DNA from: Methanobacteriota archaeon
GTDB taxonomy: Archaea; Thermoplasmatota; E2; DHVEG-1
DNA: 64,000 nucleotides
Direction: 5' to 3'
Assembly: GCA_026394495.1 (NCBI GenBank)
Contig: JAPKYE010000025.1
Coordinates: 1 to 64,000, forward strand
Numbering within the stretch: position 1 is the first letter of the stretch; every line of letters starts with the position of its first letter. Shown piece by piece: positions 9,800 through 29,286 of the stretch. The notes under the pieces are model-generated. The model was not told the origin of the DNA. It worked only from the letters and a program-made list of their open reading frames with translations, and did not search any database. A program made the position numbers and the translations under genes.

Positions 9800-9873
9800 G
9801 CCGCCGTAGCTTAGCCCGGTTGAGCGGCTGATTCGTAATCAGCAGGTCGAGGGTCCAAATCCCTTCGGCGGCT
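9800..9873 (+). tRNA. tRNA-Thr (CGT)
   Basis: The acceptor stem GCCGCCG (9800-9806) pairs perfectly with CGGCGGC (9866-9872), discriminator T73. The anticodon stem GCTGA/TCAGC encloses loop TTCGTAA, anticodon CGT, which reads ACG (Thr). The T-arm contains GGTCCAAAT. The gene is uninterrupted. Its 3' 15 bases are the left half of a 16-bp direct repeat whose other copy is at 18031, so it served as integration site for the adjoining element and stays intact. Confidence 0.95.
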
Positions 9874-9874
9874 T
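9859..9874. repeat. attL: 16-bp direct repeat inside the tRNA-Thr 3' end
   Basis: The sequence ATCCCTTCGGCGGCTT occurs here and again at 18031-18046. The left copy lies in the T-arm and acceptor of tRNA-Thr and is directly followed by a tyrosine integrase gene, the classical layout of a tRNA-integrated element. Confidence 0.85.
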
Positions 9875-9922
9875 CCGACATAAAGTATATATTACTATCA
9901 CAATATTCTACTTTTGATTAGT

Positions 9923-11128
9923 ATGGGCACCCATAATCCAAAAAGGAAACTAGAAACAGCCTTTAACAACATAATACACCTGAAAACAACACCGAACAAT
10001 AAGAACGAAATCAAAGAATTCATCGAGTTTCTAGCAGCACAAGGGGTAAAAGAACTACGACAAGTCAAATACATCTATGCACTTGGGAACATAGCACTCT
10101 GGTTGAAAAAAGATTTCTTGGTTGTTTCTAAGAAGGATATAGAGAAACTATGCAGCGACCTAGAAAAAGGAAAATACACAGCTTGGACGAAACACGATTA
10201 CCGTGTGGCCATCAAAAAATTCTACACCTGGTTACGAAATAAAAATAATGATGATATGGACGAATGGACGACACCAAAGGAAGTCAAATGGATTAAGGTA
10301 CGTTCACCATCAGGCAGCAAGAAACTTCCTTCTGATTTGTTAACACCGGAAGACATACAATTATTGGTAGAGTCCTGTAGAAATCTACGAGAAAAAAGTT
10401 TGATTTTGTCAGTATACGAAACAGGTGGAAGAATAGGAGAAATTTTAAATTTGAAAATAAGGGATTTTAATCCAGATGATTTTGGTGCAATGTTAAATCT
10501 GAATGGTAAAACAGGATATCGAAAAATCAGAATCGTTGGTTCTGCACCCGCCATAAGCCAATGGCTTGCACTTGAACACCCTAAACGCGACGATAAGGAA
10601 GCATTTTTATTTTGCAATATACAGAACACGGGGGAGGGGGAAGCACTCTCATACGACGCAGCTGATAAACTATTAAAAAAAATTGGTGCCAGAGCAGCTA
10701 AAAAAGGATTCAATAAAAAAGTACATTTTCATCTATTTAGACATAGCAGATTATCTGAACTCAGTGAATACATGAACGATGCGCCATTAAGGGCGTTTGC
10801 GGGGTGGCGTTCAGGGAGTAATATGTCAGCGGTTTATACGCATATTGCAGACACGAATAAAATAATATTGGAAATGAATGGGTTGTTGGAAAAAAAGAAA
10901 GGAGAGACGGGGGGATTTAGAGAAATAGTATGTCCTCGATGCAATACCAAGAATTCCCACGGTGATAAATATTGTTCTCAATGTAGTTTAGGATTAGACG
11001 CGAGAGATATTATGGAATACACAAATATCAAAAAAGAAGCGCTGAAACAACTCGACAACCAAATTAATGTCGAAGCAATCATTAAGATGGTGATGGAAAG
11101 ATTAGAAAACCCAGGAGAGAAAAAATAA
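9923..11128 (+). CDS. tyrosine recombinase/integrase with C-terminal zinc ribbon
   Basis: A 401-residue Xer/phage-type integrase that should catalyse insertion and excision at the tRNA-Thr att site. The N-terminal 110 residues form the SAM-like core-binding domain. The catalytic residues are visible: Arg in GGRIGEILNLK, Lys in NGKTGYRKIRI, HLFRHSRLSEL (HxxR), Trp in AGWRSGSNMSA and the nucleophile Tyr in VYTHIAD. After the catalytic domain a zinc ribbon (CPRCNTKNSHGDKYCSQC) is appended near residue 335, common in archaeal element integrases. Start ATG at 9923; a TTG three codons upstream is also in frame. It lies 50 bases from the tRNA end. Confidence 0.92.
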   Translation: MGTHNPKRKLETAFNNIIHLKTTPNNKNEIKEFIEFLAAQGVKELRQVKYIYALGNIALWLKKDFLVVSKKDIEKLCSDLEKGKYTAWTKHDYRVAIKKFYTWLRNKNNDDMDEWTTPKEVKWIKVRSPSGSKKLPSDLLTPEDIQLLVESCRNLREKSLILSVYETGGRIGEILNLKIRDFNPDDFGAMLNLNGKTGYRKIRIVGSAPAISQWLALEHPKRDDKEAFLFCNIQNTGEGEALSYDAADKLLKKIGARAAKKGFNKKVHFHLFRHSRLSELSEYMNDAPLRAFAGWRSGSNMSAVYTHIADTNKIILEMNGLLEKKKGETGGFREIVCPRCNTKNSHGDKYCSQCSLGLDARDIMEYTNIKKEALKQLDNQINVEAIIKMVMERLENPGEKK

Positions 11129-20551: not shown

Positions 20552-20659
20552 CAACACAGTATTTATAGTTTACGCATACCAGGAGTTAAACAACAGTGAA
20601 TCGATAAAATTCATCAGAAAGCAACATAGGCTGTAAAAAGTCACAAAAACTGGAAACAA

Positions 20660-21010
20660 AAAGCAAAACAGTTGGGAAACCAAAAGTGACACCGATGAGA
20701 AATGAAAAGCGACACAAACGGGAAATGCTAGGCGACACAGATGGGAAATCAAAAGTGATACAGATGGGAATTTCCCAGGTGACACAGATGGGAAATATCT
20801 CTCGGAGAACACAGATTCAACGAAGGCAATTTTAGGTGCTACAGTTGGGAAATGGAAAAGTGATATGGTTGGGAAATGATTTACTCCTGGGAAATACAGG
20901 TCAATGAACCCTGCTTTTTACGGGTCAACGAAGGACTTTTCAGGTGACAGAGATGGGAATTAGCGGGTTTTCGAGAGGGAAATGCGAGGTATCGACTTGG
21001 GAAATACCAG
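20660..21010. repeat. block of about ten degenerate 23-bp direct repeats
   Basis: The unit is close to AAAAGTGACACAGATGGGAAAT, repeated head to tail near 20680-20790 and then with insertions to 21010. The most constant part is GATGGGAAAT. Unit length is 22-24 bases, not a multiple of three, so the repeating peptide seen on the minus strand is a by-product. There are no unique spacers. It sits between the antitoxin promoter and the pilin leader. It may be an array of protein-binding sites (iterons or an upstream activating region). Confidence 0.7.
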
Positions 21011-21400: not shown

Positions 21401-21880
21401 ATGAAAGCAAACCAAAAAATTATAGAGGCAGATGACCACGCAGTATCAGCAGTCATAGGTGTAATCCTTATGGTTGCCATTACTGTAGCAATCGCAGCAA
21501 CCGTATATGTCTACGTCAGTGGAATGATCGGCGGAACAAAACAAACAACACCTAATGTAGCTTGCACAACAGATCCAACTGCAAATAAAATAACTGTTGC
21601 TACCGCAGATGCAGCTATAAAATGGAAGGATATAGTAATTACAACTGATAACGGGACTTTCGGTACTGGTGCTAGTGCCGCCTCTGTGAATTGGACAATT
21701 TATACTGGTGGTGGTATAAATGCTCAAACAAGTAACATAGCGATAACCGATGCTGCGATAGATGTTTCAGCAGGAGATTATATTTACCTCAACTGGGGAA
21801 CTCATACCGGTAATGTCAAAGTAACATTAGCATATACCCCTACAAACTCATTACTCGGTTCGTGGACAGTTAACGTCTAA
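21401..21880 (+). CDS. archaeal type IV pilin
   Basis: A 159-residue pilin. The N-terminus has the class III signal peptide (KANQKIIEADDHAVSAVIG) followed by the hydrophobic assembly helix (VILMVAITVAIAATVYVYVSGMI), as in the archaeal Pilin_N family. The rest is a Thr/Ala-rich beta-type head domain, likely exported and possibly glycosylated. It would be cleaved by the prepilin peptidase at 27375 and form adhesive pili. A second pilin follows 112 bases later. The ribosome site is nearer to an upstream overlapping ATG at 21391, so initiation may be coupled or regulated. Confidence 0.88.
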   Translation: MKANQKIIEADDHAVSAVIGVILMVAITVAIAATVYVYVSGMIGGTKQTTPNVACTTDPTANKITVATADAAIKWKDIVITTDNGTFGTGASAASVNWTIYTGGGINAQTSNIAITDAAIDVSAGDYIYLNWGTHTGNVKVTLAYTPTNSLLGSWTVNV

Positions 21881-21992
21881 GCACAATCTATCTTTTTTTT
21901 CTTTTATTTTTATATTTTTTTTCTCTTTCAAACAATACCCAGCAGATACACTTGCAACTTCATCGAAAATTAATGGAGGAGGTAAGATAAAT

Positions 21993-22406
21993 ATGAAAGT
22001 TGACAGAAATATAAAACAAAACGAACACGCTGTTTCAGCAGTCATCGGCGTCACACTCATGGTCGCAGTCACCATCGCAATGGGAGCTGTTGCCTATGCT
22101 TATTTTACAGGGATGATCGGTGGTAATCAAAAAGTAGCGACACCAGCTATTGCGTTTACAAAATCCGATTCAGAACATACAATCACCGTCTCAACAGCAG
22201 ACATAGGCGTTAATTGGGAAGATGTCAACATAACTTTTACCAACGGGATAAGCGCAGATTTTCTTGAGAAAACCGGTCCCCTTAGCGCAGGAAATACAAT
22301 AAATCTTGATACGGACCAATCTCTTACCGGAGAAGTAACTGTTGCATTTCGACATGTTCCTTCGAATTCACAGCTTGGAACGTACATATTCCAAAACGTC
22401 TCGTAA
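21993..22406 (+). CDS. archaeal type IV pilin, second gene
   Basis: A 137-residue paralogue of the preceding pilin with the same signal region (NIKQNEHAVSAVIGVTLM) and helix (VAVTIAMGAVAYAYFTGMIGG), then a different, shorter head domain ending in GTYIFQNVS. It has a strong ribosome site, GGAGGAGGT, 13 bases before the ATG. It may be a minor pilin or an alternative subunit. Downstream, 22407-23242 holds no convincing gene: it contains the intergenic repeat A, a patch of ATGTCC-type words near 22930-22995 and part repeat B. Confidence 0.87.
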   Translation: MKVDRNIKQNEHAVSAVIGVTLMVAVTIAMGAVAYAYFTGMIGGNQKVATPAIAFTKSDSEHTITVSTADIGVNWEDVNITFTNGISADFLEKTGPLSAGNTINLDTDQSLTGEVTVAFRHVPSNSQLGTYIFQNVS

Positions 22407-22505
22407 TAGCATAGTTATTAAATCATAAATTTTCTTACTATTTTTGGTTAGTTCACTGGGTACACGTTAAAAGACGTAACATAACCAGCTCTCTTTTCAT
22501 TTAAA

Positions 22506-22800
22506 CGTACCAGCGGTCTTGGCGATTCCTCGTTTACGGAAGCAACCAATATATTATATCATATTTGATATCATTCAAGATAGAAGCAGTACTATCTACT
22601 GGATAAATAAACCTGTTTTTTTTGGAACCACCGCCTCTAAGAACCTCTGATTTCAGCCCAGGATTCATACAAAAGAATCACCCCACCCTGAAATCACACC
22701 CTCAAGTTCATCCTGCTTTCCACCCCAGTGGGATAATCATCGAGGTTTTTGGATAAAGGAAGGATCCCTTTATACGAAGCGTGGCAGCGACCTGTGGTCA
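22506..22800 (+). repeat. intergenic repeat copy A
   Basis: Begins CGTACCAGCGGTCTTGG and runs through AGCAACC, hairpin ATTATATCA-TATT-TGATATCAT (22553-22574, one mismatch), hairpin AGATAG/CTATCT (22578-22597), oligo-T (22616-22623), and CCTCTGATTTCA to a second, degenerate core GCGTGGCAGCGACCTG near 22781. It matches copy D over most of its length. Confidence 0.75.
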
Positions 22801-23010: not shown

Positions 23011-23140
23011 CTTTCATTCCTGTGGATAAACATCAAGGTTTTAGGATTAAAGGAAAGGATCCATTTCTGCGAAGCGCGGAAACGACCTGGAAAACAAATC
23101 ATTCACAGAAGAAACCAAGGATGATGCCGGTGGTTTCAGA
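23011..23140 (+). repeat. intergenic repeat copy B (right part only)
   Basis: Matches the right third of copy D: GGATAAACATCAAGGTTTT, AAAGGAAAGGATCC, core GCGAAGCGCGGAAACGACCTGG, then CATTCACAGAAGAAACCAAGGATGATG. The left part with the hairpins is absent. Confidence 0.7.
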
Positions 23141-23242
23141 GTAAAAAAAATAAAGAAATATGATTATCCTCGATAAGATCAACCACAACTTGCGAAAGCA
23201 AAAATATATAAGCTGTTATAGATATATTAAAATGTGGAAAAA

Positions 23243-23386
23243 ATGACAGATAAAAAACTTTTAACATTGATGGGCAAAAAATACGATTCAAAAACAGAAC
23301 CACTTCTAAGATACGGTGGAGAAATAAACAGCAAAGGAAGAATCGTCCGCGTAATAACAAAAAAAGAATATAACCAGTTAAAATAA
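23243..23386 (+). CDS. small hypothetical protein
   Basis: A 47-residue basic frame (TDKKLLTLMGKKYDSKTEPL, then GGEINSKGRIVRVITKKEY) following a TATA-like ATATATAAGC at about 23203. It is the first frame of a short operon with the DUF5678-like and aspartic-protease genes. No family recognised. The alternating strand pattern GRIVRVITKKEY looks genuine, but with this length the call is modest. Confidence 0.4.
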   Translation: MTDKKLLTLMGKKYDSKTEPLLRYGGEINSKGRIVRVITKKEYNQLK

Positions 23387-23413
23387 AAATGCAGAGCATA
23401 GAGGGTAAGAAAA

Positions 23414-23584
23414 ATGAAACAAGAAATACAACACATCGGAGAATGGTTCCTCTGCTCCAGCAAAGATCAAAAAATAATCGCTCATGACGTTGACTTTATG
23501 AAGATACACAAACAAAGCCAAAAATACCCAGTCGGCGACGTATTCATAAAACAACAACTACAACAAGGCACTTGTTTTTTCTGA
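23414..23584 (+). CDS. small DUF5678-like protein
   Basis: A 56-residue protein, GEWFLCSSKDQKIIAHD followed by YPVGDVFIKQQ and a C-terminal TCFF. The pattern Trp-hydrophobic, charged turn, IIAH, Gly-Asp-hydrophobic and a final aromatic strand is that of DUF5678, a small domain of unknown role. The same pattern recurs in the protein at 24290. In both cases a retropepsin-like gene follows directly (here after 7 bases), so the two products probably work together. Confidence 0.55.
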   Translation: MKQEIQHIGEWFLCSSKDQKIIAHDVDFMKIHKQSQKYPVGDVFIKQQLQQGTCFF

Positions 23585-23591
23585 GAAGATA

Positions 23592-24017
23592 ATGCCACGA
23601 ACAACCCCTCTCTTAAAATTCTCATTTAATTACAGTGATTTCGAATGCAAAATACCCGTGGTACCTGTCCGGTTCATCAGAGAAGATGGAACATCGTCAG
23701 CACTCATTTACGCAGTGCTTGATTCCGGTGCTGAAGGAATTGTACTCAGAGAAGACCTCGCGCAATGGCTAAAACTGAAACTTACGCCTAAACAAACACC
23801 GGCATTAACTGCAGGTGGACAGAAGCAATGTCTCACTGGAACTGTACCAGTATTTATTCTAGGAAGGGGCGGAAGAGAGATTCGATATGAAAATATCGAA
23901 GTAATTGTAATCGAGGGTAACCCTGCAATTCTAATCGGGATTAATCCCATATTTGAAGACTATATAGTTACTATTAATTCTCATGCAAAAAAATTTCTCC
24001 TCGATCCAAGAAAATAA
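23592..24017 (+). CDS. retropepsin-like (clan AA) aspartic protease
   Basis: A 141-residue single-domain aspartic protease. The catalytic motif is VLDSGAEGIVL near residue 42 (Asp-Ser-Gly instead of Asp-Thr-Gly, as in several clan AA groups). The matching hydrophobic-hydrophobic-Gly motif is AILIGINPIFEDY near residue 115. It would act as a homodimer. The first 30 residues give the usual strand KIPVVPVRFI. Substrate unknown; the adjacent DUF5678-like product is the obvious candidate partner. Repeat C starts 39 bases after its stop. Confidence 0.78.
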   Translation: MPRTTPLLKFSFNYSDFECKIPVVPVRFIREDGTSSALIYAVLDSGAEGIVLREDLAQWLKLKLTPKQTPALTAGGQKQCLTGTVPVFILGRGGREIRYENIEVIVIEGNPAILIGINPIFEDYIVTINSHAKKFLLDPRK

Positions 24018-24055
24018 AGTATCGCCTTTATCATGATGCCTATACCTTTACTGAA

Positions 24056-24202
24056 CCGTGTCAGCGGTCTGGGTGATTCCTCCGGTTCCGAAGCAACCGG
24101 CATATTATATCACAGTTGATATAATCTAAGAGAAAACCCTCATTATCTCTTAGATAAACGATTCCATTTTTTCTGTTGGAACCACTGCCCCTAAAAACCT
24201 CT
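24056..24202 (+). repeat. intergenic repeat copy C (left part)
   Basis: Starts CGTGTCAGCGGTCTGGG. Perfect hairpin ATTATATCA-CAGT-TGATATAAT (24104-24125), then perfect hairpin ATCTAAGAG/CTCTTAGAT (24124-24132 with 24147-24155), oligo-T at 24167-24172, then GGAACCACTGCCCCTAAAAACCTCT. The right part is missing. Confidence 0.8.
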
Positions 24203-24289: not shown

Positions 24290-24520
24290 ATGAAGAACGG
24301 GGTAGAAAATATTGAGGCGTTAGAAAAACGATATCCTGAGGAGTGGCTACTAGTGGAAGTAACACATGCAGATACATTAGGGAATCCTAAAAAAGGAAGA
24401 ATCATCAACCATAGCAAATCTAAGGAAAAAATCATCGAAAAATCAAAAGGAAAAGCCGGTGATATCGCACTATTCTATTCAGGAAAAATTCCGAAGAAAG
24501 GCTATGCATTCTGTTTCTAA
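24290..24520 (+). CDS. DUF5678-like protein, second copy
   Basis: A 76-residue protein: ALEKRYPEEWLLVEVTHAD, then GRIINHSKSKEKIIEKSKGK, GDIALFYSGKIP and a terminal GYAFCF. It has the same order of Trp-strand, loop, I-I-x-H, Gly-Asp-hydrophobic and final aromatic strand as the product at 23414 but is longer, with the complete DUF5678 layout. A TATA-like GTTTAAATAG lies about 30 bases upstream, giving a nearly leaderless start. It precedes the second aspartic protease by 25 bases. Confidence 0.6.
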   Translation: MKNGVENIEALEKRYPEEWLLVEVTHADTLGNPKKGRIINHSKSKEKIIEKSKGKAGDIALFYSGKIPKKGYAFCF

Positions 24521-24545
24521 AAAATAATAGAAAATGTGAATTCAT

Positions 24546-24932
24546 ATGGGAAGAATAACTTTCAATCCAGATGACTTTGGAATCGTATTGTTTACAACCA
24601 TTAGCCATGGTACAGTGAAACGCCGATTGAAGATGGTGTTGGATACCGGTGTTACCTATTGTATGATACCGTGGTATGTTGCGGAAGAGCTTGGATACAA
24701 ACCTGCGCTCATAAAAGAATCGATTGCGGTACATACCGCGAATGGCCAGATCCATGTTCCGATTCTGTCGGTGGAGTCTATACTGATTCTTGGTAAACAC
24801 GTAAAAAACTGCGAGGTACTCATCCAGGATTTACCTGAAACCAGTCGGGTGGATGGACTTATTGGATTGAGTTTCTTGAAAGAGTGTAATGTCAAGATTG
24901 ATTTTCAAAAGGGTGTTCTCCAATTGGAATGA
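24546..24932 (+). CDS. retropepsin-like aspartic protease, second copy
   Basis: A 128-residue clan AA protease. Catalytic motif MVLDTGVTYCMIP near residue 31 has the canonical Asp-Thr-Gly, and DGLIGLSFLKECNVKID near residue 103 is the conserved hydrophobic-Gly motif. ELGY and the VHTANGQIHVPIL flap region are typical. It is clearly related in fold to the protease at 23592 but far diverged in sequence, so the two cassettes are not a recent duplication. Repeat D starts about 33 bases after its stop. Confidence 0.8.
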   Translation: MGRITFNPDDFGIVLFTTISHGTVKRRLKMVLDTGVTYCMIPWYVAEELGYKPALIKESIAVHTANGQIHVPILSVESILILGKHVKNCEVLIQDLPETSRVDGLIGLSFLKECNVKIDFQKGVLQLE

Positions 24933-24965
24933 AAGAGAACGATATTTGTTTGCATCTTTTTGCTG

Positions 24966-25330
24966 AGCGCGACAGCGGCCTGGGAAACGAATCATTTACA
25001 GAAGCAACCGGCATATTATATCACATTTGATATCATATAAGATAGAAGCAGTACTATCTACTGGATAAATAACTCTGTTTTTTCTTTCGTCACCCGCCGC
25101 ACCTCAAGAATCTCTGATTTCATCCCAAGATTCATACAAAAGAAGCACTTATTCTTGGATGACTCACACTTCAAGTTCATCCTGCTTTCCACCCCAGCAG
25201 GATAGTCATCTTATTAAGGATTTGAGGTAAAGGAAGAGAATCCCTTGGTGCGAAGCGTGTCAACGGTCCGGGGGGAAGAATCATTCACAGAAGAAACTAA
25301 GGATGATACCGGTAGCTTCAGAATAAAGAA
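24966..25330 (+). repeat. intergenic repeat copy D (fullest copy)
   Basis: Left core GCGCGACAGCGGCCTGGG, CATTTACAGAAGCAACC, hairpin ATTATATCA-CATT-TGATATCAT, hairpin AGATAG/CTATCT, oligo-T at 25078-25083, middle segment with GATTCATACAAAAGAAGCAC and TTCATCCTGCTTTCCACCCC. It ends in right core GCGTGTCAACGGTCCGGG followed by CATTCACAGAAGAAAC. Left and right cores resemble each other over about 42 bases, so the copy is flanked by degenerate direct repeats. Confidence 0.8.
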
Positions 25331-25342
25331 ACAAAGAATCAT

Positions 25343-25627
25343 TTATTTTTTTGATTCTCTCCATTTATACACAGTATCATGATGATCAAAATAGTAAATT
25401 TCAACGACTTTCTATGTATGATCTATCGTAAAAATGAGAACAAAATGCGTATTAATATGGGCTCCATAGAAATTTTGAAGAGGTTTATGTAAATGTTTAT
25501 AGGAATGTTCAGGATTGTTTCGAATTTCTTGAATCTTCTTGTGAATACTTTCTAATTGTTTCCTGTTCTTTTTTATCAATTTTTTAAAGATCTTATCAAC
25601 AGATGGCTTAATGTCAAGATCATACAT
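25343..25627 (-). pseudogene. RelE-type toxin truncated by an in-frame TAG
   Basis: From the ATG at 25627 the frame reads YDLDIKPSVDKIFKKLIKKN ... HLHKPLQNFYGAHINTHFVLIFTIDHT and stops at TAG (25412-25414). After the stop the same frame continues KVVEIYYFDHHDTVYKW and ends in TAA at 25343-25345. This tail is exactly the conserved end of RelE/YoeB-like toxins, with the DHHD-x-VY motif. So one codon has become amber and removes the last 22 residues. The antitoxin in front is intact. Other genes here use TAG as stop, so recoding is unlikely. Confidence 0.75.
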
Positions 25628-25856
25628 CCAACTTGTACCTCTTTGCAAAGTCATCCACTCGGATGCTTTTCTCTTTTTTTATCTTTTCTATCTTTTTAAT
25701 AAATTCAGGTTGAAGTTCAGGTTCTCCTTCAAACTCGATATATTTATTGATAATAAATTCAATGGCTTCACTTTTATCCTTTAAGTTATACTTTGCTTTC
25801 ACAATATTAAGAACTCTATTGATATTTCCGTTTAATTTTACTAATGCTTGAACCAT
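25620..25856 (-). CDS. ribbon-helix-helix antitoxin, DUF2683-like
   Basis: A 78-residue antitoxin. The N-terminal strand and helices (MVQALVKLNGNINRVLNIVK, then DKSEAIEFIINKYIEF) fit a ribbon-helix-helix DNA-binding domain. The C-terminal helix (PEFIKKIEKIKKEKSIRVDDFAKRY) would wrap the RelE partner. The stop overlaps the toxin ATG by eight bases. Its promoter carries an inverted repeat that also contains the ribosome site. It is complete although its toxin is truncated. Confidence 0.75.
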   Translation of the reverse strand: MVQALVKLNGNINRVLNIVKAKYNLKDKSEAIEFIINKYIEFEGEPELQPEFIKKIEKIKKEKSIRVDDFAKRYKLDV

Positions 25857-25881: not shown

Positions 25882-25906
25882 TTTAACTTATTTATATTCT
25901 TTTCTG

Positions 25907-26186
25907 AACGTGTCAGCGGCCTGGGCGATTCCTCATTTTCAGAAGCAACCAGCATATTATCTTACAGTTGATATAATCTAAGAGAGAAACTTCATTGTCG
26001 TCTGGATAAACGATCCTGTTTTTTCTTTTAGAATAACCGGCATCTAAAAACCTCTGTTCCATCCAAAGATTCATACAAAAGAAGCACTTTATTCTGGATG
26101 AATCACCCCGTGAAGTTCATCCTGCCTTTCGTCCCAGCGGATAATCATTAAGGTTTTGGGATAAAGAAAGAATCCTTTATGCGCTA
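25907..26186 (+). repeat. intergenic repeat copy E
   Basis: Starts CGTGTCAGCGGCCTGGGCG, AGAAGCAACC, degenerate first hairpin ATTATCTTA-CAGT-TGATATAAT, lost second hairpin, oligo-T at 26019-26024, then GATTCATACAAAAGAAGCAC, TTCATCCTGCCTTTCGTCCC and GGATAATCATTAAGGTTTTGGG. It ends near TATGCG without the right core. Confidence 0.75.
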
Positions 26187-26293: not shown

Positions 26294-26821
26294 ATGTTAT
26301 CAAAAATATTTTCTTCAAACAAAAGAATCCAAGTCCTTGAACACGTTCTCTATCAAGACACGGCCACCGTTTCCACTGTTGTAAAAGAACTATCTCTCAG
26401 TAAAGGATTCGTATCAGAATTCCTCCATCTTCTTTATCAAAACAATATTCTTGAAAAAAATAAAGGATACCACCTCACAAACACCCCTCTAACAAAAGCA
26501 ATCAAAATTCTTCTTAACGTCAATAAAATAAAGCTCTCTAAAATCAAAAAACCATATATGAAAGGAATTGGACTATATGGGAGCTGGGCTAATGGATCAA
26601 ATACAATGAAAAGCGATCTGGATCTCTGGATAAAAACAGAAAAATACCCTGACGAAAAAGAACTTGCTTACCTTTCAAAAAACCTACGAGAAATGACCCA
26701 TTCAGACATACAATTATTGGTTCTTACCCCTCAGAAACTAGAACAAATCAAAAAAGATACACCATTTTATATATCTCTCCGATACAACTCCCTCTTATTA
26801 TGGGGTGAACCAATTGAATAG
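26294..26821 (+). CDS. winged-helix plus minimal nucleotidyltransferase (MNT) antitoxin
   Basis: A 175-residue protein. Residues 10-70 are a winged helix (VSTVVKELSLSKGFVSEFLHLLYQN, then ILEKNKGYHLT). Residues 90-160 are a minimal nucleotidyltransferase with GLYGSWANGSNTMKSDLDLW, the Gly-Ser and Asp-x-Asp of the polymerase-beta fold, and SDIQLLV as the third strand. In HEPN/MNT systems this enzyme neutralises the HEPN toxin, in studied cases by AMP transfer. The extra DNA-binding head suggests it also represses its own operon through the tandem dyads upstream. It overlaps the HEPN gene by 17 bases. Confidence 0.82.
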   Translation: MLSKIFSSNKRIQVLEHVLYQDTATVSTVVKELSLSKGFVSEFLHLLYQNNILEKNKGYHLTNTPLTKAIKILLNVNKIKLSKIKKPYMKGIGLYGSWANGSNTMKSDLDLWIKTEKYPDEKELAYLSKNLREMTHSDIQLLVLTPQKLEQIKKDTPFYISLRYNSLLLWGEPIE

Positions 26822-27239
26822 CTACAAAGAATGTTTCAAAAGAGGACTCCTACAAAAGGTTCAACCATCAAAAGAAAAAGCAATAGACAGCATACAAAAA
26901 GCTGAACAATGGATCAAAGAATCACAAATGACACTGAACGCAGGAGCCTATGATTCATGCATAGCCTCCTCATATCTTGCAATATTTCATTCTGCTCGAG
27001 CAATACTATTCAGGGACGGCGTACGAGAAAAAAGCCATTACTGCATCGCACGATATTTAGAGAAATATGTTGAAGATGGTTCATTGGAAGAAGAATGGGT
27101 GACATTGCTGGACCGAATGAGAGAAATCCGTCATATGGATCAATACACATTACATTATCATGCAACAGAAGAAGAAGCATCATCGTTTCTAAAGTCCGCA
27201 ACAAATTTTGTTACTAGAATGACACAACTTCTTGGTTAA
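26805..27239 (+). CDS. HEPN-domain ribonuclease toxin
   Basis: A 144-residue helical HEPN protein with the catalytic R-x4-6-H motif RMREIRHMDQY near residue 105 and the conserved CIASSYLAIFHSARAILF helix near residues 55-72. HEPN toxins cut RNA as dimers. The tail YHATEEEASSFLKSATNFV is typical. GTG at 26805 is used as start, inside the end of the MNT gene; TTG at 26814 is an alternative. Repeat F begins about 50 bases after the stop. Confidence 0.82.
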   Translation: MNQLNSYKECFKRGLLQKVQPSKEKAIDSIQKAEQWIKESQMTLNAGAYDSCIASSYLAIFHSARAILFRDGVREKSHYCIARYLEKYVEDGSLEEEWVTLLDRMREIRHMDQYTLHYHATEEEASSFLKSATNFVTRMTQLLG

Positions 27240-27289
27240 ATCAGATATCAAAGATAAAATGATGTGACTAATTTGAATAATCTCTGCTG

Positions 27290-27310
27290 AACGTGGCAGC
27301 GGCCTGGCAA
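27290..27310 (+). repeat. intergenic repeat copy F (core only)
   Basis: GAACGTGGCAGCGGCCTGG, with CAAACAAAACGCATTGATTTCAT after it, keeps only the left core of the repeat. It lies between the HEPN toxin and the prepilin peptidase and is the last copy seen. Confidence 0.65.
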
Positions 27311-27374: not shown

Positions 27375-28109
27375 ATGATTGACGAAACAACTCTTAATAT
27401 CATACGACTTATCACTGGCGTAGTAATTCTATCATATGCAGCCTACACCGATATAAAAACCAGAAAAGCAGCAAACATCCTGTGGGTAATCATGGGCGGA
27501 ATTGGCGTAGGACTTCTTATCATACAAGCAATAACAATAGGATTCGAAAACCTGTATTATCTGCTTTTTATCCCGATAATGATCGGGCTCATCTACGGTT
27601 TTTATCAATTTAGACTTATCTTCGGCGGCGCAGACGCAAAAGCACTGATGGCCCTTTCCATCCTTGTCCCCATTTACCCGACAATCTCTCAATTCCCCGT
27701 CAGGATATCCGCAGTTCCATCAATTATGCCAGACCTGCCAGCCCCATGGATAATTTTTTCAAACTCAGTCATCATTTTCCTTATCATCCCACTCTCACTC
27801 CTACTCTACAACCTGATAAAACGTGACGTTGCCTTTCCCCATAGTTTCCTCGGATACACCATGAGTGTCGCAGACGCAAAACAAACCTTTGTCTGGCCCT
27901 TAGAAAAAATTGTTGACGGGAAACGAAAATTTGTGTACATGCCAAAGGATTTTGATACAGACAAAGAACTAGAAGAATTTGAAAAACTAAAAATAGAAAA
28001 AATATGGGTGACACCAAAAATACCGTTTATGATCCCACTCCTCCTAGGTTTCATTGAAACGTTTCTCATCGGAGATATACTCATCTCATTCATGAGATTA
28101 TTTATCTAA
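27375..28109 (+). CDS. prepilin peptidase, A24 family
   Basis: A 244-residue membrane aspartic protease that removes signal peptides of type IV pilins and archaellins. The two catalytic aspartates are in [13 protein letters not shown] near residue 25 and in [14 protein letters not shown] near residue 90 (GxGD-type motif, here GGAD). About six hydrophobic segments are visible. Between the fourth and fifth lies a cytoplasmic loop ([10 protein letters not shown] ... [22 protein letters not shown]), longer than in short members. It most likely processes the two pilins at 21.4-22.4 kb, although the repeat array and three cassettes separate them. Confidence 0.85.
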
Positions 28110-28167
28110 AAAGAACCAATCTTTGGTAAAACACATATATCTCTTCTTCTTTACCCCTGGTTTGCAC

Positions 28168-29286
28168 ATGACGAAACGAGACTATTACGACATCCTTGGT
28201 GTTACGAAAGATGCGAGTAAAGACGAAATCAAAAAAACATATAGAAAACTCGCATTAAAATACCATCCTGATAAAAACCCAGAAAAAGATGCAGCAGAAA
28301 AATTCAAAGAAATCTCAGAAGCCTACGCGGTACTAAACGATGATGAAAAACGAGCGATGTACGACCGACATGGACATGCTGGAATTGATCAACGATACAG
28401 CACAGAAGATATATTCCGAGGCGCTGATTTCAACGATATCTTCCGCAACATGGGATTTGATTTTGGAGGTGGAGTCGAAGACATATTTGATCAATTCTTC
28501 GGAAGACGAAGAAGCGGGTTTGAACAACGATCTCACAGAGCCCGCGGAGCAGATCTGCGCTACGACATAGAAATCAACCTGGAAGACGCATACCGCGGAG
28601 TAGAAACCGAAATCAATGTTCCCCGATCAGAAACCTGCGAAACATGCAAAGGAAATGGTGCGAAACCAGGCACAAAACCAAAAACCTGTTCTCATTGCGG
28701 CGGTACAGGCCAACAGCATACAACCCAACGCACCGCGTTTGGCATGGTCACCCAAGTATCCACCTGTCAGAAATGCAGAGGACAAGGAAAAACCATTGAA
28801 GCATATTGCCCTGATTGCAGAGGACGAGGGATCACCCAAAAAACACGACGCATCGAACTTAAAATACCAAAAGGAATAGATGACGAATCACAACTTCGAT
28901 TATCAGGGGAAGGAGAAGCAGGAGGAAACGGGGGACCAAATGGAGACCTGTATATCGTTGTTCACATAAGGCGTCACCCAAAATATCAGAGAAAAGGTGT
29001 TGATCTCTACACCCGAAAAGAAATCTCATTCCCCGACGCAATACTTGGCTCAAAAATCAACGTAGAAACCTTACAAGGAACCGAAAAACTCACCATCCCT
29101 CAGGGAACAGAAACCGGAAACATCATAAAACTCAATGGACAAGGTATGCCACATCTCCAGGGAAGAGGCTATGGAGATTTATATATAGAATTCTTTGTAA
29201 AAACACCTAAAAAACTGAGCAGAACCGCACGAATACTCGTTGAGGATCTTGCCAGAGAACTCGAAAAACAAGACGAAAAAGTTTAA
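28168..29286 (+). CDS. dnaJ: molecular chaperone DnaJ
   Basis: A 372-residue type I Hsp40 that delivers substrates to DnaK and stimulates its ATPase. The J domain begins [16 protein letters not shown] and contains HPD in [11 protein letters not shown]. It is followed by a Gly/Phe-rich segment (residues 75-115), four zinc-binding repeats ([32 protein letters not shown]) and the C-terminal substrate domains. The ATG at 28168 is chosen because the J domain begins there; the frame is open to 28123. dnaK and grpE are not in the window. The Hsp20 gene follows 51 bases later. Confidence 0.93.

Follow-up and report, generated by a model that had tools for sequence, protein, structure and literature searches.

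A Repeat Family at an Archaeal Hot Spot: Probable Recombination Junctions of an Integron-Like Cassette Array

The repeats described here are probably recombination junctions, at which small cassettes with toxin-antitoxin and defence-like genes are joined into an integron-like array. The hot spot occupied by this array has pilin genes on one side and the genes of a prepilin peptidase and DnaJ on the other. The window, that is, the whole stretch of 64,000 nucleotides analysed, corresponds to contig C116 of a 2.2-Mb archaeal metagenome-assembled genome (MAG; G000), the host being a lake-sediment archaeon. That the cassettes are shuffled and transferred, and that the right half of the long junctions originates from a DHH-family gene, are the strongest claims of this work.

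Site Family and Layout of the Hot Spot

The hot spot is bordered on the left by two type IV pilin genes (21401-22406, + strand; Pilin_N and synteny), and on the right by the genes of an archaeal prepilin peptidase and DnaJ (27375-29286, + strand). The repeat family spans 22.4-27.3 kb, and its long, short, and stub copies all lie on the + strand. Copies A, C, D, and E, which form a 125-nt family, are present where the preliminary description placed them, at 22506, 24057, 24968, and 25909. The long junction is composed of three modules: a left module of about 45 nt (S5), a dyad (dyad 1), and, in antisense, the final ~20 codons of a DHH-family gene.

At site A, S5, which ends in CAACC, covers 22503-22547 (+ strand), dyad 1 covers 22553-22574, and the DHH 3'-end fragment, recognized by alignment, covers 22575-22660 (- strand) and holds a second stem (stem 2) and a T-tract at 22616-22623. 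Site C is built in the same way, with S5 at 24054-24098 (+ strand), dyad 1, the first hairpin of the preliminary description, at 24104-24125, and the DHH fragment at 24129-24194 (- strand; tblastn), in which the second 'hairpin' and the T-tract 24167-24172 are found. The corresponding modules lie at 24965-25009 (+ strand), 25015-25036, and 25040-25126 (- strand; tblastn) in site D, and at 25906-25950 (+ strand), 25956-25977 (dyad 1 with one mismatch), and 25981-26037 (- strand; tblastn) in site E. Site F is a 5' stub, with only the first bases of S5 (27289-27307, + strand).

S5 is common to long and short sites. In the short type, it is followed by ..AGGATGATACCGGTGGTTTGAG, in place of the dyad and the DHH fragment. 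Two such sites are detected on the + strand with the R2 model: site B (23064-23145, 65.9 bits), and another right after site D, consisting of S5 and a GATACCGGT.. right half (25245-25327, 66.6 bits). The stretch leading from the DHH fragment of site D to this short site (25127-25240, CATCCCAAGATTCATACAAAAG to AAGTTCATCCTGCTTTCCACCCCAGCAGGAT) is itself repeated: corresponding segments follow sites A and E. Outside the array, many imperfect GTGACACAGATGGGAAAT-like units are present at 20640-21010, in the interval that separates the first pilin gene from a small gene on the - strand.

The cassettes between these sites comprise a retropepsin-like aspartyl protease gene (23592-24017, + strand; Pfam PF13650), a gene encoding a 76-aa protein (24290-24520, + strand) and its partner, a second aspartyl protease gene (24546-24932, + strand), a YafQ/RelE-like toxin with a DUF2683 protein (25412-25856, - strand), and a toxin-antitoxin pair formed by an MNT nucleotidyltransferase and a HEPN protein (26294-27239, + strand). 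The RelE/DUF2683 module runs counter to the sites, and this inversion is found in both the window genome and the related genome G035, in which the 76-aa protein and the second protease are each 89% identical to those of the window.

Two of these modules (23234-24017 and 24290-24932) combine small protein(s) with a retropepsin-like aspartyl protease. The second pair moves as one cassette, with 89% identity between genera, and its protease matches the PADLOC candidate family PDC-M08B. Such modules are possibly an undescribed toxin-antitoxin or defence pair.

Cassette Shuffling and Transfer between Genomes

Similar arrays are found elsewhere, and the sites are co-oriented within every one of them. 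In the window genome itself, contig C20 carries seven co-oriented sites over 10 kb, separated by MNT/HEPN, HEPN/MNT, PIN, DUF433/DUF5615, AAA-DUF4143, and DUF2683/RelE modules, while contig C91 carries a single PIN module between two sites. At the hot spot of the window, G035 and G042 have overlapping module sets in other orders: aspartyl protease, toxin-antitoxin, MNT/HEPN in the window; ATPase, toxin-antitoxin, aspartyl protease, PIN in G035; and ATPase, PIN, HEPN/MNT in G042.

The conservation of these modules exceeds that of their surroundings. Between genera g1 and g13, amino acid identity reaches 89% for the aspartyl protease and for the 76-aa protein, 90% for DUF2683, 84% for the RelE-like protein, 92% for AAA-DUF4143, and 90% for DUF433, versus about 63-73% for the flanking pilins, prepilin peptidase, and DnaJ. 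At the DNA level, the cassettes are 79-91% identical and the flanks 66-73%. As the shared modules are mostly 84-92% identical at the protein level, against about 63-73% for the flanks, they have moved horizontally.

Pilin gene fragments (3' ends and one 5' end) also occur within the arrays, beside S5 (L032, 10576-10647 and 8265-8393; L034, 7747-7872; L066, 11178-11240), which indicates that pilin sequence, too, is involved in the rearrangements.

Proposed Recombination at the Junctions

A trace of recombination between sites is seen in a comparison of two species. In contig C7 of G035, a DUF433/DUF5615 module is enclosed by two sites (site 1 and site 2), while the orthologous place in contig C179 of G042 holds one site. 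The right half of this solo site is 98% identical to G035 site 2 and 76% to site 1, and its left half is 82% identical to site 1 and 76% to site 2. The diagnostic bases are distributed 6 L:3 R to the left of CAACC and 0 L:13 R to its right (Fisher p = 0.001, for what is a single event in a comparison of two species), so that the switch falls at CAACC, between S5 and the dyad/right half. The solo site thus has the composition expected for the product of an exchange between site 1 and site 2, by excision or the reverse. Halves are reassorted among the window sites as well, the left halves grouping A, C, and E against D, and the right halves A and D against C and E. In two transferred cassettes, homology stops at or next to CAACC, a point that is also where the site type changes.

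From these comparisons, we infer that the exchange is site-specific. Cassettes would be gained and lost through recombination between junctions, with an exchange point at or near CAACC and a putative recombinase acting in trans. A more explicit version would make the array an integron-like platform of Thermoplasmata-type archaea, non-homologous to integrons, in which the putative recombinase swaps cassettes at a double-stranded core near CAACC; this core would lie between the codon-like 45-nt module and the dyad with the host gene 3'-end copy. This version is a tentative one, and rather unlikely to hold in full.

Not all edges fall at CAACC. The left edges of homologous cassettes are located at their own promoters, 20-80 nt past the upstream site, and some right edges either coincide with the end of the gene or lie within the DHH fragment, at GGAACCACCGC; one crossover point, therefore, cannot explain all junctions. 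Ragged edges of several kinds are what would be left by ordinary homologous or illegitimate recombination between resident fragments (S5, pilin 3' end, DHH 3' end), operating with neither a dedicated recombinase nor a core, and the presence of fragments of both border genes within the arrays also speaks for such passive repeats. Nevertheless, S5 is only 58-82% identical between sites, and the longest identical run, which is that of G035 sites 1 and 2, is 17 nt, offering little to homologous recombination. The switch at CAACC in the solo site, and near CAACC in the two cassette comparisons and the reassorted halves, is likewise poorly accounted for by this explanation, which we regard as the less likely of the two.

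Search for a Recombinase

The lack of any detected recombinase is a further point in favour of passive repeats. All arrays lack an integrase, both inside and in their immediate vicinity. Among the tyrosine recombinases of eight genomes and the serine recombinases of the four carriers (the latter only listed), none was identified that all carriers share. IntI was not found in the window genome (93% complete), the best TIGR02249 match reaching 98 bits against a cut-off of 265, with the middle of the model missing. Since the MAGs are 87-97% complete, the absence of a recombinase does not constitute proof.

Among the candidates, two tyrosine integrases that are 91% identical between two genera, from contig C109 of G000 (L022, 1042-2124) and contig C44 of G022 (L107), were rejected, as neither is near a site. 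The former adjoins a tRNA-like stretch, and the two probably belong to a recently transferred element. The nearest integrase gene of the window itself (9914-11128) lies beside a tRNA-Thr gene. The tyrosine integrase gene follows the tRNA gene directly (9800-11128), an arrangement resembling one end of an integrated element and showing no link to the array.

The Right Half as an Antisense DHH Gene End

The part of the site in which stem 2 and the T-tract lie proves, by tblastn, to be the final ~20 codons of a DHH-family gene (AVVPKEKTESFIQEI.RFLS*) in antisense. In copy C, this antisense reads LGAVVPTEKMESFI*EIMRVFS, and its G035 counterpart is LGAVVPKERTESFIQEIVRFLS. The T-tract corresponds, in the alignment, to the antisense of the Lys codons in VPKEKT. 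In the arrays of three genomes, tblastn and alignment reveal about a dozen places where a DHH 3'-end fragment comes after a cassette.

The genomic context of the intact gene relates it to the hot spot. In genus g13, the DHH gene is convergent to the pilin gene, beside the prepilin peptidase and DnaJ genes, and three array-less relatives have the pilin and DHH genes directly adjacent and convergent, next to those of the prepilin peptidase and DnaJ. These relatives contain neither S5 nor the dyad at this place, which led us to reject the idea that S5, dyad, and DHH fragment are simply an ordinary pilin/DHH intergenic region. In the window genome, the DHH gene is located elsewhere, between cysN and cysC (L068). 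The fragments of the window are closer to the g13 genes than to the genome's own gene (for instance, 73% against 63% in A, and 65% against 54% in E), which points to import.

In G042, a displaced DHH fragment matches G035 at 55/59 positions, versus 49/59 for the current G042 DHH end (p = 0.15). Replacement of this 3' end by an imported copy (p = 0.15 and 0.07) is thus possible but only suggestive, as p = 0.15 is not significant.

Hairpins, T-Tracts, and Structure Tests

The preliminary description recognized two hairpins per repeat, followed by an oligo-T tract, and took the second one, said to keep its pairing with different sequence, as a sign of selection on structure. The first hairpin holds. 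In copy C, it is formed by ATTATATCA (24104-24112), CAGT, and TGATATAAT (24117-24125), and the dyad is conserved. Dyad 1 is real and exceeds chance: over 9 copies, 88.9% of pair cells are paired, versus 21-51% when the partners are slid by 1-3 columns. Because it is nearly invariant, it gives no covariation signal.

The second hairpin behaves differently. Its sequences are as first described, ATCTAAGAG/CTCTTAGAT in C (24124-24132/24147-24155) and AGATAG/CTATCT in A and D, but the conservation of its pairing does not hold up. Across 19 aligned sequences, stem 2 pairs form in 56.5% of cells under the copy C register and in 66.7% under the A/D register, the two registers being two columns apart; in copy C, it also overlaps dyad 1 by two bases (24124-24125). 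The pairing is absent in E, in most other copies, and in the intact homologous genes. As A and D are one sequence in the stem 2 region (93% identical), the impression of different sequences with the same pairing rests on two sequence types. A covariation check on the 19 sequences found none above shuffles: the observed number of two-sided changes is reached by 221/500 and 353/500 shuffles. Since stem 2 and the T-tract derive from DHH codons, they need no structural function. Selection on structure is left without support.

Archaeal transcription can end at oligo-T, and the T-tracts at 22616, 24167, 25078, and 26019 do lie at a constant distance in A, C, D, and E, which, together with the conserved dyad 1, would suit a structured RNA or an intrinsic terminator behind each gene, with two hairpins and a T-tract under selection. 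This explanation is, however, very improbable. In addition to the missing covariation of stem 2, and to the DHH codons that account for both stem 2 and the T-tract, none of the four T-tracts is a terminator-like site, and such sites are not in excess in the region (4 vs 3.9 by chance). Fold z-scores are mostly near zero, the only clear gain over the shuffles being that of copy C (z -3.1 on one strand and -3.7 on the other), and the short-type sites have no dyad, stem 2, or T-tract. An Rfam search of the window returned four tRNAs only, and no RNA family at the repeat. These results constitute a warning: 'compensatory' stems in repeats can be the codons of a duplicated gene end.

The repeat had also been proposed to be a folded single-strand recombination site. 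The recombination part agrees with the cassette shuffling and the recombinant solo site; the fold does not, as no consistent one emerges in the short sites and attC boxes are lacking.

Comparison with Known Systems

Small cassettes that follow one another in the same orientation and are rich in toxin-antitoxin genes have been reported for bacterial and archaeal integrons (Ghaly et al. 2022, PMC9668308). This likeness to archaeal integrons (PMC9668308) is what recommends a canonical CALIN, an integrase-less cassette array with attC sites, which can nonetheless hardly be the explanation, given that RYYYAAC/GTTRRRY box pairs occur in 0/24 sites (shuffled expectation 0.4), that the short sites have no conserved imperfect hairpin (z about -2.8 to +1.4, no common fold), and that the genome has no detected IntI.

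As in integrons and CALINs, short related sites separate small, co-oriented, toxin-antitoxin-rich cassettes, which are reordered and transferred between species, and site halves are reassorted. The present array differs by the absence of attC boxes, of an attC-like fold, and of IntI, by sites containing gene-derived 3' ends, by several cassettes that appear to carry their own archaeal promoter, and by the presence of three separate array loci within a single genome. Another parallel is offered by tyrosine-recombinase elements that insert themselves into gene 3' ends and restore the gene with their own copy, given the duplicated DHH 3'-end fragments at cassette ends and the displaced G042 fragment resembling a relative's DHH end. 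Nevertheless, the target here is a protein gene, the cassettes measure 0.5-1.5 kb and have no integrase, and the unrelated S5 forms the left part of the long sites. The content (MNT/HEPN, PIN, RelE-like, DUF433/DUF5615, and AAA-DUF4143) is also that of defence or toxin-antitoxin islands, although here each module lies between copies of a short recurrent junction and is shuffled as a unit.

If the exchange is site-specific, archaea would have a second, IntI/attC-independent route for exchanging cassettes of small defence and toxin-antitoxin genes. Because the sites have neither attC boxes nor folds, standard integron searches would miss such arrays.

The Left Module and Its Distribution

S5 has a fixed left edge and ends in CAACC (e.g., GAGCGCGACAGCGGCCTGGGAAACGAATCATTTACAGAAGCAACC in D). 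It varies like the codons of a peptide, ERGSGLGNESFTEAT, with an excess of third-position changes (p = 0.003), and this codon-like variation makes an origin from a gene probable for S5 as well. A tblastn search of 80 class-level genomes, phages, and plasmids revealed no parent gene, and neither did Pfam or PDB. In G022 (L069, 6642-6776), S5 lies within a 44-aa open frame, MQHTERGSGLGEQSFSETTDILYRLYDDQIRSLMGDSSTFQTVI, that is preceded by a TATA-like box and has an AAA-DUF4143 gene on either side; the frame has no relative in Pfam, PDB, phages, or plasmids.

The family has a narrow distribution. Repeat copies are absent from the phages and viral contigs searched, and a sequence model of the short site matches in only 4/390 genomes of the phylum, all from one family: G000 (three loci), G035, G042, and G022. 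With a strict repeat pattern, the named genome collection yielded only two already-seen relatives, labelled 'Thermoplasmata archaeon' and 'Euryarchaeota archaeon', the latter apparently from Lake Pavin, judging by its name.
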